Shown here: piece by piece, positions 1,543-59,987 of the stretch
Numbering within the stretch: the stretch's first letter is position 1
Layout of the letters: every line of letters begins with the position of its first letter
Translations under genes and position numbers: made by a program
From: Chloropicon primus
Taxonomy: Eukaryota > Chlorophyta > Chloropicophyceae > Chloropicales > Chloropicaceae
Assembly: GCA_023205875.1 (NCBI GenBank)
Contig: CP060757.1
Coordinates: forward strand, 124,001 to 188,000
Direction of reading: 5' to 3'
DNA length: 64,000 nt
Notes under the pieces: generated by a model
What the model saw: only the letters and a program-made list of their open reading frames with translations
What the model was told of the DNA's origin: nothing
The model's database searches: none

Positions 1543-3018
1543 TGCGGCGCACACACGCGAACGAACACACTTCACCACCTTCAATCTGCCTCGTTCCTCC
1601 GCCAAATGAGTCAACCAAGGCACCAAACCAAAGCTCGCGAGACGCTATTTCGCCTCACTCCGTCCCCTTCGCCTCCCCCCTTCCCTTTGGCGTTCAATCC
1701 GCCGCCAGTGTCCCTCCCTTGGTCCTCCTGCGGCCTCCAGCTGGACGTCTTCCAAAATTGTTTATCATATATTTAATAAGAAATGGTCGAGGCCAAGCCG
1801 CTCGCTCGTTCCCCGAGGAGAGGGGGAGGAAAGAGGAAAGAGGAAAGAGGAAAGAGGAAAGAGGAAAGGGTCGGTTTCCCGTCGCTTCCCCGACAGACAG
1901 GATGGGGTGTCCTTTCCTCTCTCCTCCTTGGCTTCCCTTAAGGGAAAGCATGAATGGATGGACCCCAACCCAAAACGAAAGAGGGGCCAAAGCAGGAGAG
2001 GTTCTGGCTGGGGAGACGGAAAGTAAAAGCGTTTTCTCGGTCGTCTTGTGAATCTTTTTCCAAGAGATTCTTTCCTCCCCTCGTGCTGGACAACGACAGA
2101 ATCATGTATTCGACAGCAAGGAAGGGAGGGAGCTAGGATACAACTCTTATCAATACGCGTCCTGGTCCTTGGACAGTCCTTCACCTATTCGATTAGGAGA
2201 GAGGATGGATGGGGACCCAACCACAAGCCTGCTTGGTGCTCTGTGCTTCTTTGCTCTGTGCTCTATGCTTCTTTGCTCTGTGCTTTCTCCAAGTCCACAC
2301 ACAGCACGCGTCTTTGAACGGAGAGAGGACCCAAGGAGATAGAAATAGATAGATAGGAGTAGGAGATAGGGAGGACAAAGGGAGTACAACTGGGGTGTGG
2401 ACAGAAGCGGAAGGGACAACAAGAGCTGCAGGGTAGGAGCCTGCCGACAACAAACTCGTCCTTGCGGGGGTGAAGAGGATCAACAGGAATACCTGAACCA
2501 AGACGACAGGCTAAATAAGGGAACCACTCGACACAAGACCGAAGAGTCGGAACGAACACAGGTACCTAGGTCAAGCCGGGTCTCGGGTTTTGTATCCACC
2601 ACGCTTGGAAGAGGAAGAAGAAGGAAAACCTGAACCAAAGAAAGAAAGAAACTGCTGCAAACTGCGCGACCGACCGACCGACCGGCAAGAGAAGGAGAAG
2701 GGGGTGCGGTGTCGGTGGCATCGATCGAGGCTTACCGCAAAGGAAAAAAAAAAAAAAGACAAAGAACTTTGCCTCGTGGGTTGAAAGTCTTTTTTTACGT
2801 CGAGAGAACATTGTGGCATGCATTCCTACGCTTGGTGAACTTTTTCATTGGTGAGGGTGAAGGAAGGGAAGGAGAAAGAATTTGTGTTCAAGGACGGTGG
2901 ACGGGACGGATTGGATCGACTATTGCTGATCAGTCTGACCACGGAAAGATTTGGTGAAAGAGAGAGAAGAAAGAAAAGATTGGCTGGTGCGTGACCAAGG
3001 AGACCAAACAAACTTGAT
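1543..3018. other. Intergenic region between divergent dioxygenase and AP2 genes
   Basis: No convincing gene. It holds a copy of the recurring oriented module at 1611-1650, a polypurine run of the 7-mer GAGGAAA (about six copies, 1825-1869), and a 22-bp tandem repeat of the type TGCTCTGTGCTTCTTT (about 2.5 copies, 2237-2286). An A-run lies near 2741-2757 and a purine-rich leader at about 2955-2980, shortly before the AP2 start codon. Open frames here are short and low in complexity. Confidence 0.6.
1611..1650 (-). promoter_or_regulatory. Recurring oriented module copy
   Basis: The reverse complement reads GCGTCTCGCGAGCTTTGGTT, then TGGTGCCTTGGTTGA. It lies about 70-110 bp upstream of the dioxygenase start, on that gene's strand. 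Confidence 0.6.
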
Positions 3019-4392
3019 ATGCAGGGTGGAAACGCGACGAATGGTGCTCCATTTGGAGCCGTGCCTCAACAGGGTCAGCAGGTAGGCACCCAGAACCTCC
3101 AGCAGGGTGCTGCTCCGCCGCAGCACCCACAGATGATGACCCCCCCTGGAGCGATGACGGCAGCGATGCAAGTTCCTCCTCCTGCGAATGCTCAGCTCAA
3201 GAAGGCTCAGGCTCAGGCTCAGGCTGTCCAGAAGGCAGCAGCGAGTCCACAGAGCGCCTTGTCCAAGGAGCTGAGGGCCATGAACGGGAACGGCACTCCA
3301 GCTGCGGGAAACAAGGCGAGCACTTCGAAGCAGGACACGACCCAGACGAAGGAGAAGAGCTACCGTGGAGTCCGCCAGCGACCTTGGGGCAAGTGGGCCG
3401 CTGAGATCAGAGATCCTACTTTGGGACAAAGGAGGTGGCTGGGAACCTTCGACTCTGCGGAACAGGCCGCCAGGGCCTACGATGCTGCCGCCAGGCAGAT
3501 TAGGGGCCCCAACGCTAGGTGTAACTTTCCTGAGCCGTCCAATGGCCAGGCCGACCCCGTGCCAAAGGCAAAGCCGCCGTCACAGACCAAGAGGTCGAAC
3601 AAGAAGAGCGAGCCCAAGAAGAAGACTCAGAAGCAGCAGGCTGCCCAGGCCCAGAAAATGAATCAGGAGATGGCCAACATGCAGAACCAGCAGCAATACT
3701 TCGGCAACCAGTTTGCCATGAACCAGGTCCAGATGAACCAGGCCCAGATGGCGATGCAGTCGGCCGCGATGCAGAAGATGCTGTCAGACAACGCCGCCGC
3801 GGCTGCCATGGCTGGCGCGCCCCAGGTCCCCGGCTTCAACCAGCTGCCGAACATGCAAGCAATGCAGCAGATGCAGCAGCAGGGCGCATGGAGGAACGGC
3901 TTCCTCAGCGGGAGCCCCATAATGTTTGGAACCTCGCCCGGCCTCTTAGGGAGCTCTTACGACATGATGGAGCAGTGCGAGGCCTTGATGGCGGGCAGCA
4001 TCCCCACAGGAAGCCTCACTGGCTCCGGGAGCGTCCCTAGGAGGATATCCCTGAGCGAGCTCGGAGGTCTGGGAGGGCCAGACGGAGCCCAGCTGGACAT
4101 GGACGTCGACATGGGCACGGGGAGCATCCCAGGTATCGCCCCCGGGCTGTCCAGTTTCCAGCGCCAGGCCTTCCACATGCAGCACGGCCAAGGAAACTTC
4201 CAGGGGGGGAGGGAGCGAACCTTTTCTCAGGAGATGGGCTTCAGCTACGAGAATTTCATGTTCAGCCCAGTGACTCCAGGGTTTTTCGGCAGCCTGGGCA
4301 CGTCGCCCCCGACGTTTTGGCTGCAGGGTGGCGGGTTTCCAAACCAGCAAAACGGGCCCGAGGAGATGGCAGCACAGCAAACTCGCCAGTGA
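3019..4392 (+). CDS. AP2/ERF-domain transcription factor
   Basis: Single-exon 457-aa protein with one AP2/ERF DNA-binding domain at about residues 115-171, opening with [18 protein letters not shown] and carrying the WLGTF and AARAYDAAA blocks of the plant-type domain. The rest is low complexity: an N-terminal Q/A/P-rich stretch, a Lys-rich patch directly after the domain ([12 protein letters not shown], probable nuclear signal), a Met/Gln-rich middle and a Gly/Ser-rich C-terminus. This is the layout of activators with a glutamine-rich activation region. The ATG at 3019 is the first in frame and follows a purine-rich leader. A single AP2 domain indicates ERF/DREB-like rather than euAP2 type. 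Target genes cannot be inferred. Confidence 0.9.
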
Positions 4393-59385: not shown

Positions 59386-59987
59386 CGTCCGCTCTCCACC
59401 GCGCGCGCTTCACTGAGTGAGCCCACCAACTCCACCCCAACTCGTGAAAGAGACGGACAAAGGTTTGATCTCTGAAAAGTACCCACTTTGTTCTTGCCCG
59501 AGAGGAAGAGAGGGGTGGAGGACCGCAAGACGGGAAGCGTCTTGTCGAGAGCTTTCTTTGAAGCCGTCACTCGAAGGATTTGGTGGTCTGTGGAGGATTT
59601 GACAAGGAATGATACCGAGATGGTTGTCTGAAGCAGGAGGGTGGTGAGGCCAGTTCGCGAAGGAATTGGAGGCGAGGACGAGGAGGGAGGCGGAGTAAAG
59701 GTTGACCAGAGGAAGATTTATATCGAGAGGTTTCGAGAGTGCTTCAGCTCGAAGGAAATGGACCAGGATTGAGGATTCTGTCGACTGAGATCCCTGGCAG
59801 GAACAGGTGTTTGGCCAGACGTGGGGTTTGATTGATGCGGTAGCAGGCGAGGGTGGAGGAGGAAGAGAGAGGGGAAGAGAAATCGCAAAAGCGCGTCCCA
59901 AGATCTTTCGACTGGTACTCTCGATGGAAAGAAATGGACCAGGATTGAGGATCATCTCGAGTGGCTTGAGTCCGGGGGAGCTGAGGG
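59386..59987. promoter_or_regulatory. Divergent promoter region, RlmN / unknown gene, with repeated modules
   Basis: No gene. Module copies oriented to the plus-strand gene lie at 59534-59580 and 59890-59930, with a weaker one near 59715-59754. An identical 22-bp string beginning GAAATGGACCAGGATTGAGG occurs at 59755-59776 and 59931-59952, each directly downstream of a module copy. Confidence 0.6.
59534..59580 (+). promoter_or_regulatory. Recurring oriented module copy
   Basis: It reads GGGAAGCGTCTTGTCGAGAG, then CTTTCTTTGAAGCCGTCACT; the first 16 bases equal those of the copy at 32547. Confidence 0.65.

Follow-up and report, generated by a model that had tools for sequence, protein, structure and literature searches.

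What kind of sequence recurs, in diverged copies that point toward genes, across the intergenic regions of the green alga Chloropicon primus? The stretch considered here (the window) comprises 64,000 nucleotides of its genome (G000:C4:124001-188000), in which a first-pass annotation had listed 14 sites of a dispersed module and taken it for an oriented core-promoter or 5'-untranslated-region (5'-UTR) element and not for a set of random insertions. The module is interpreted here, at a probability of roughly 0.55, as a directional promoter element of C. primus that acts chiefly in divergent (bidirectional) promoters and is arranged at the scale of the nucleosome. This interpretation draws on the orientation, placement and spacing of the copies in the window, in a 200-kb block of contig C2, and in the genome assembly as a whole (17,584,162 bases in 20 contigs).

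Orientation and placement of the module

A 75-bp profile trained solely on 24 copies from the C2 block placed the 14 listed sites at ranks 1-8, 10, 12-15, and 17 among 127,852 window positions, confirming that all of them hold the module; there is mild circularity in this test, as the 24 copies had been chosen with a profile refined on window and block jointly. Seventeen positions scored above the best of the reversed profile, three of them previously unlisted (23830, 59730, and a weak one at 62255, all on the plus strand), and the site at 59890 was weak, with 3.6 bits against a best reversed score of 2.5. Before refinement, a profile made from 28 copies outside window and block gave 24 matches of at least 10 bits in these 264 kb, whereas five column-shuffled profiles gave 0-1 and the reversed one gave none. 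The refined profile gave 40 copies of at least 15 bits, and none when reversed. These 40 copies form the unbiased set. Thirty further loci (L001-L030) were picked with the 20-mer core of the first-pass annotation and are biased to one subtype; L004, L008, L009, L023, and L026, which overlap other loci, the window or the block, were omitted from some counts.

The direction of the module is apparent from pairs of copies. Genome-wide pair spacing was taken from 512 listed matches to a strict signature out of 789 (the other 277, all on C11-C20, were left out), and among these the opposite-strand pairs within 1 kb faced outward in 25 cases and inward in none. Transcription direction was taken from called genes, whose models were mechanical (open reading frames [ORFs] and a hexamer score, without introns), so that start codons are uncertain and some "tandem" gaps may be introns. 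In divergent regions, 31 of 35 copies were nearer to the gene at which they point. That copies point at a neighboring gene, as had been claimed for all but one of them, is uninformative in divergent regions, which offer a target to any orientation; it is the nearness and pair tests that sustain the claim. Thirty-six of the 40 unbiased copies are aimed at a called gene start, and the copy at 13297, singled out earlier as the exception in orientation, is indeed among the four that are not.

Called coding sequence makes up ~69% of window and block, and none of the 40 copies lies within it, while 37 have a divergent neighbor behind them. Copies of at least 15 bits occupy 22 of 36 divergent regions, 3 of 45 tandem regions, and 1 of 36 convergent regions, the last being 3.9 kb long and perhaps containing an uncalled gene; at 6 bits, the corresponding numbers of regions are 23, 4, and 3 (Fisher p 2e-7 and 1e-6). 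The divergent and tandem regions are similar in total length (33 kb and 32 kb). In a stricter set, 14 of 32 divergent starts have a sense copy ahead of them; of the 16 tandem starts, none has a copy ahead in either sense or antisense orientation. The preference for divergent intergenic regions goes beyond what the first-pass annotation had recorded.

These observations bear directly on the main rival, a dispersed mobile repeat (a miniature transposon or miniature terminal-repeat retrotransposon) that survives in open divergent promoters, the module being its terminal repeat and a 182-bp unit, described below, being repeat plus internal part. Such an origin is possible, at a clearly lower probability than a promoter role. 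The lack of inward pairs and of copies in called coding sequence argues against it, as does the near emptiness of tandem regions of similar total length. A comparison of the sequence outside 26 tandem pairs and 23 solo copies, whose true boundaries are uncertain, gave no target-site duplication above control (longest shared words of 5.6 and 5.7, as against 5.5 and 5.9 in controls), and the inner flanks of outward pairs were mirror-alike above the 95th percentile in only 3 of 18 cases. Some outward pairs do enclose a near mirror-image spacer, so that a long palindrome separates the divergent genes.

In 24 of 51 genes, the nearest anchor (position 0, the first C of CTTTC) stands 39-138 bp before the called ATG, and in none of the 51 is it closer than 39 bp; a second group, 12 of the 51, has it at 249-302 bp. 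An anchor within 140 bp of the start in these 24 genes, along with the intergenic placement and the aim at gene starts, supports the view of an oriented 5' element as opposed to random insertions. Twelve leaders shorter than 130 bp, read by eye, contain no ATG between +45 and the start codon. CAT occurs 39 times between module and start codon, against 27 expected (standard deviation 3.7).

Conservation was determined from 103 copies, the 40 unbiased ones included, and the general form of the module approximates GAAG..TCGTCTCGCGAKCTTTCGATTGATCCCTCGCTCGAANGNTTTGGCGC...GGTGAGG, extending from -18 to +45 around CTTTC. The shared core proposed previously, CGTCTCGCGAGCTTTCCATTGGTNCC, describes the GGTACC subtype and does not serve as a general consensus. 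The conserved positions are GAA (-18 to -16), TC (-7/-6), G (-3), CTTTC (0-4, with T at +2 in 103 of 103 copies), G (+9), T (+15, +19), and G (+21), followed by a looser WTTGGCGC...GGTGAGG. The sense-strand flanks are purine-rich (0.67 at -100 to -1; 0.64-0.66 at +50 to +149), and a candidate second conserved motif upstream, obtained by expectation maximization (EM), was rejected as GA-rich sequence that is present downstream too. At -300 to -187, EM yielded a motif resembling the reverse complement of the module (above 10 bits in 40 of 71), as expected of the outward partner copy.

The module is a partial palindrome, and its own opposite-strand shadow matches 14 bp apart. The weaker of two matches within 30 bp was therefore removed (103 to 98) in comparing tandem and mirror flanks, and likewise for ATG distances, homologous alignments, divergence, dinucleotide rhythm, the upstream EM, and target-site tests; shadows were kept in flank composition, the 103-copy conservation, the locus distance list, and a 39-copy profile search.

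Regular spacing and the promoter interpretation

Among the listed strict matches, 42 of 43 same-strand pairs within 1 kb are spaced at 157-199 bp (median 182, standard deviation 9), and one at 357 bp. Outward gaps measure 232-323 bp in 20 of 25 cases (mean 262, standard deviation 18), and the other five, at 419-451 bp, are one step longer. The same spacing is repeated in the window and in the sequenced loci, where 14-bp distances and sums containing them are palindrome shadows; the two inward pairs in the locus distance list both involve shadows. One divergent region (C10:133651-134433) holds five copies, three on the minus and two on the plus strand. Neither the 182-bp period nor the outward gap of ~260 bp, nor the scarcity of copies on large chromosome arms, had been foreseen in the first-pass annotation.

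Judging by its size, the 182-bp step would correspond to one nucleosome repeat. Upstream of the module, WW dinucleotides (W, A or T) follow a 10-11 bp rhythm with SS dinucleotides (S, C or G) in counterphase, which 0 of 300 shifted controls matched in strength for 71 non-redundant copies and 16 of 300 for the 32 unbiased copies alone. A 10-bp signal covering a whole nucleosome upstream was considered and rejected, as the rhythm is strong only from -120 to -20 (~100 bp), and the WW rhythm is absent downstream of the module. In the 200-kb block, CpG autocorrelation was 0.061 at lag 180 and 0.047-0.055 at lags 140, 160, 200, and 220, with no period standing out clearly. A phase-locking of the ATG to the 182-bp ruler was also rejected, as the R of 0.69 in the first 23 genes came chiefly from the proximal cluster.

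Alternatively, the module might be a site at which a general regulatory factor binds to form a chromatin boundary or to phase nucleosomes; the divergent gap would thereby be kept open, but the site itself would not set the transcription start. The 182-bp period beside a central gap of 260 bp resembles a nucleosome array next to a depleted region, and the upstream dinucleotide rhythm is in line with this. That rhythm, however, does not fill a nucleosome and has no downstream counterpart, and strict outward orientation would not be required of a boundary; this explanation is regarded as rather improbable.

According to the promoter interpretation, each gene of a divergent pair could own a copy, the copies facing outward from a shared gap of ~260 bp, with further copies possibly standing at steps of ~182 bp. 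A putative DNA-binding complex would recognize the best-kept positions, GAA..TC..G.CTTTC....G, and would fix the transcription start within the 3' half of the module or immediately beyond it, at an expected offset of about +20 to +60 from the anchor; ATGs as near as 39 bp and the ATG-free shortest leaders lend such a start position indirect support. With 182 bp as one nucleosome repeat, the copies would lie at successive linkers or nucleosome edges, and the arrays appear to grow and spread via copy-to-copy exchange that shifts whole module-spacer-module units. As for the earlier label of core promoter or 5'-UTR, a pure 5'-UTR element is less likely, because arrays extend upstream of the ATG by one to several periods, and the core-promoter half of the label is retained as the presumptive one.

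Cassettes, divergence, and genome-wide distribution

When the flanks of 26 tandem pairs were compared with those of unrelated pairs, the 100 bp upstream scored below the 95th percentile (23.5) in 19, and the 70 bp downstream scored below theirs (16.0) in 25. That tandem spacing is kept at 171-199 bp despite unlike flanks favors a constraint on distance. An upstream part common to both copies, as after recent duplication, was clear in four tandem pairs and borderline in three. At L003 (G000:C8:530124-533143), three modules stand in a row at 531632, 531811, and 531989, and the middle copy has an upstream part like that of one neighbor and a downstream part like that of the other; the triplet looks like a product of unequal exchange within the array.

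Likeness also extends between loci. One spacer type, running from module to module, is common to six loci on five contigs, and another to three loci on two contigs; the sequence outside is mostly unrelated, and the likeness begins and ends near the module core, with L003/L013 and L006/L007 sharing slightly more upstream sequence. Cassettes one period in length thus do spread, by ectopic exchange, as circles, or as a mobile repeat. The cassettes speak for the mobile-repeat explanation, and repeat-internal-repeat tandem arrays have been reported for the terminal-repeat retrotransposons in miniature (TRIMs) of plants (PMC7215508). A mobile or domesticated repeat may also be the origin of the promoter module itself.

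Gene-family or segmental duplication, in which copies are merely carried along with duplicated genes, has some cases in its favor: protein kinase genes flank C1:1444588-1445050, so that copies there precede paralogs, and a near copy of this region lies at C1:1458465-1458647. As a general explanation it is very improbable and appears largely refuted by unrelated flanks, those of most tandem pairs being no more alike than the flanks of unrelated pairs; among 20 window ORFs scanned, those with Pfam matches also represent different families and have only TPR repeats in common.

Divergence was followed in 15 homologous pairs that were selected without the pattern and are not independent. Best-kept positions differ at 21 of 240 sites (0.087) as compared to 0.131 in the flanks. 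The idea that the module core is less diverged in recent copies was rejected, with a pooled value of 0.154 for the core and 0.136-0.161 for flanks; some of the alignments of window and block copies behind the pooled comparison cross GA-rich simple sequence and are possibly inflated.

Genome-wide, 111 sites match the 20-mer core when up to two mismatches are allowed, and 789 match the strict signature, the sum of six sub-patterns, divided evenly between the strands (395 and 394); reversed controls gave 0 in both searches. With up to two mismatches, the strict signature has 2,636 matches and its reversed control 214, indicating roughly 2,400 copies in the genome. When 39 copies from the window and the block alone were used to make a profile, it produced 64 matches (E ≤0.01) in 25 other loci, including unselected neighbors and a few palindromic shadows. 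Searches of viral contigs and prokaryote genomes with one exact subtype pattern each returned 0 matches, in collections from which this or near-identical genomes may be omitted, and Rfam gave no match at gathering score in the window.

The copies are spread unevenly along the large chromosomes. In the complete lists for these contigs, strict matches are confined to 1.03-1.72 Mb on C1 and to below 0.88 Mb on C2, and lie below 0.77 Mb on C3 and below 0.83 Mb on C4, with one exception on C3 (1.25 Mb) and four on C4. A non-strict copy at C2:923721 indicates that the remaining arms are poor in the module and not empty of it. With arm limits that were set after the data had been seen, the poor arms contain 16 of 43 protein kinase genes of C1-C4 (counted by hand) versus 5 of 104 strict matches (Fisher p 2e-6). 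Giant polyketide synthase genes were rejected as a cause, since ketoacyl-synthase clusters are found on C3 (1.34-1.39 Mb, within the poor arm), C5, C6, C8, and the start of C2, with none on C1 and no cluster on C4. The clusters at C5:928653-969086, C8:681710-804798, C3:1342136-1393390, and C6:922243-956753 each occupy single open frames, which are as long as 15,753 codons. Polyketide synthases of C. primus have been reported (PMC6731263).

Several of these findings weigh against a promoter role or its proposed details. Antisense copies precede divergent starts about as often (16 of 32) as sense copies do (14 of 32), as both share one region, and the case for direction therefore rests on nearness and pairs. 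Thirteen of 36 divergent regions have no copy even at 6 bits, and the large arms of C1-C4 contain few copies although genes are present there. ATGs between module and start are not clearly depleted (34, versus 42 expected; standard deviation 4.6), and phase-locking of the ATG gave p 0.06 in the first 11 far cases and p 0.46 with 27. Shared cassettes may mean that part of the regular spacing reflects common descent and not function. When all pairs are pooled, core and flanks are equally diverged; in the homologous pairs, module positions other than the best-kept ones differ more than the flanks (64 of 285 and 31 of 120), as expected if exchanges end inside the module, and the indication of purifying selection on the best-kept positions is weak.

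A further and more tentative proposal, for which the odds seem well short of even, is that divergent promoters are built from interchangeable 182-bp cassettes of one nucleosome each, with the module serving as promoter and as exchange point at each nucleosome boundary, and with cassettes gained, lost, and copied across chromosomes. If so, promoter architecture and a nucleosome ruler would be written in, and spread as, one repeat. With ~2,400 copies in a compact genome, C. primus would offer a natural system linking transcription direction, nucleosome spacing, and promoter origin, and the uneven spread along large chromosomes may mean that two promoter classes exist in one genome.

Copies in the window and comparison with known systems

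The copies in the window are compiled in Table 1 together with the module-poor arms and two mirror-image spacers. Upstream of the strong copy near 13297, a weak one (6.5 bits) lies 199 bp away, and this pair (13110-13355), both on the plus strand, stands between two minus-strand genes and is aimed at the 3' end of one of them. It may mark an unannotated or antisense transcript.

Table 1. Module copies in the window (window coordinates) and related features
Feature	Coordinates	Strand	Details
Module copy	1588..1651	-	Anchor CTTTG at 1633; 45.1 bits; rank 8 with C2-trained profile
Module copy	9560..9623	-	Anchor 9605; 100 bp before gene 8396-9505 (-)
Module copy	10224..10287	+	Anchor 10242; 281 bp before gene 10523-11497 (RING/PHD/Myb domains)
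Module copy	13292..13355	+	Anchor 13310; between two minus-strand genes; no called start ahead
Module copy	23516..23579	-	Anchor 23561; outward partner 23830; 249 bp before SET-domain gene 22287-23312 (-)
Unlisted copy	23812..23875	+	Anchor 23830; 493 bp before TPR gene 24323-26299 (+); 24.3 bits refined profile, 24.1 bits C2-trained profile
Module copy	32549..32612	+	Anchor 32567; first of tandem pair (199 bp)
Module copy	32748..32811	+	Anchor 32766; second of tandem pair with 32567
Module copy	36758..36821	-	Anchor 36803; outward partner of 37059 (256 bp)
Module copy	37041..37104	+	Anchor 37059; tandem with 37236 (177 bp); upstream of PRMT gene 37538-38707
Module copy	37218..37281	+	Anchor 37236; 302 bp before PRMT gene 37538-38707
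Module copy	43542..43605	+	Anchor 43560; tandem with 43750 (190 bp), upstream flank duplicated
Module copy	43732..43795	+	Anchor 43750; 249 bp before biotin/lipoate ligase gene 43999-45099
Module copy	59534..59597	+	Anchor 59552; first of triple array (178, 175 bp)
Unlisted copy	59712..59775	+	Anchor 59730; middle of triple array; 19.6 bits refined, 30.3 bits C2-trained
Module copy	59887..59950	+	Anchor 59905; 83 bp before gene 59988-60875; 27.4 bits refined, 3.6 bits C2-trained
Module-poor arms	C1:1-1025000; C2:880000-1769006; C3:770000-1503776; C4:830000-1460551		5/104 strict matches of C1-C4
Mirror-image spacer	G000:C20:190534-190778		Alignment 241 bp at 87%
Mirror-image spacer	Window 23561-23830		Alignment 228 bp at 84%, possibly inflated by simple sequence

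The motifs by which bidirectional promoters are usually characterized are short or weak. Among the Chloropicon papers listed by a literature search, none describes C. primus promoters in its title or abstract opening, and the word "promoter" is absent from the main text of two genome papers (PMC12301720; PMC6731263). Both papers masked repeats with RepeatModeler, and the resulting libraries may already contain the module repeat. The average nucleotide identity of C. roscoffensis RCC1871 to C. primus RCC138 is given as 77.88% (PMC12301720).

The vertebrate CGCG element, TCTCGCGAGA, is a ten-bp palindrome of bidirectional CpG-island promoters that is reported to drive divergent starts alone (PMC6192621). 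It has nine of ten letters in common with the subtype core TCTCGCGAGC of the first-pass annotation, and the link to bidirectional promoters is common as well. In contrast, the module is oriented, ~65 bp long, present as a separate copy for each direction, and variable in the CGCG letters. Of the ten positions of the palindrome TCTCGCGAGA, only T-7, C-6, G-3, and C0 are well kept in the module, and its last A is a C there (the start of CTTTC).

The introners of Micromonas and other eukaryotes are also repeats reported to be tied to nucleosome linkers in compact algal genomes (PMC9860276); for the module, such a link is suggested by spacing alone. Introners form introns in genes, whereas module copies are intergenic and no target-site duplication was found with them; none of the 40 unbiased copies lies in called coding sequence, in gene models that have no introns and leave 5'-UTR introns possible. 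With the TRIM arrays exemplified by Cassandra (PMC7215508), the module has in common direct repeats with an internal part, arrays, and solo copies, and it differs in its preference for divergent promoters, its outward orientation, and the lack of a detectable target-site duplication. The TRIM-like cassettes at six and three loci have mostly unrelated flanks, a picture that ectopic exchange would also yield. Miniature inverted-repeat transposable elements insert in either orientation, and among the listed opposite-strand pairs 0 of 25 face inward; outward pairs reminiscent of their terminal inverted repeats do occur, yet 15 of 18 lack mirror-image inner flanks, and solo copies and same-strand arrays are common besides.

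Core-promoter elements and the sites of general regulatory factors are oriented, stand shortly before genes, and have their conservation concentrated in some positions. The module has the same fixed orientation relative to the transcription direction of called genes, as seen from nearness and outward pairing, and differs from these sites in being much longer, in its 182-bp periodicity, and in its occurrence mostly in divergent regions.

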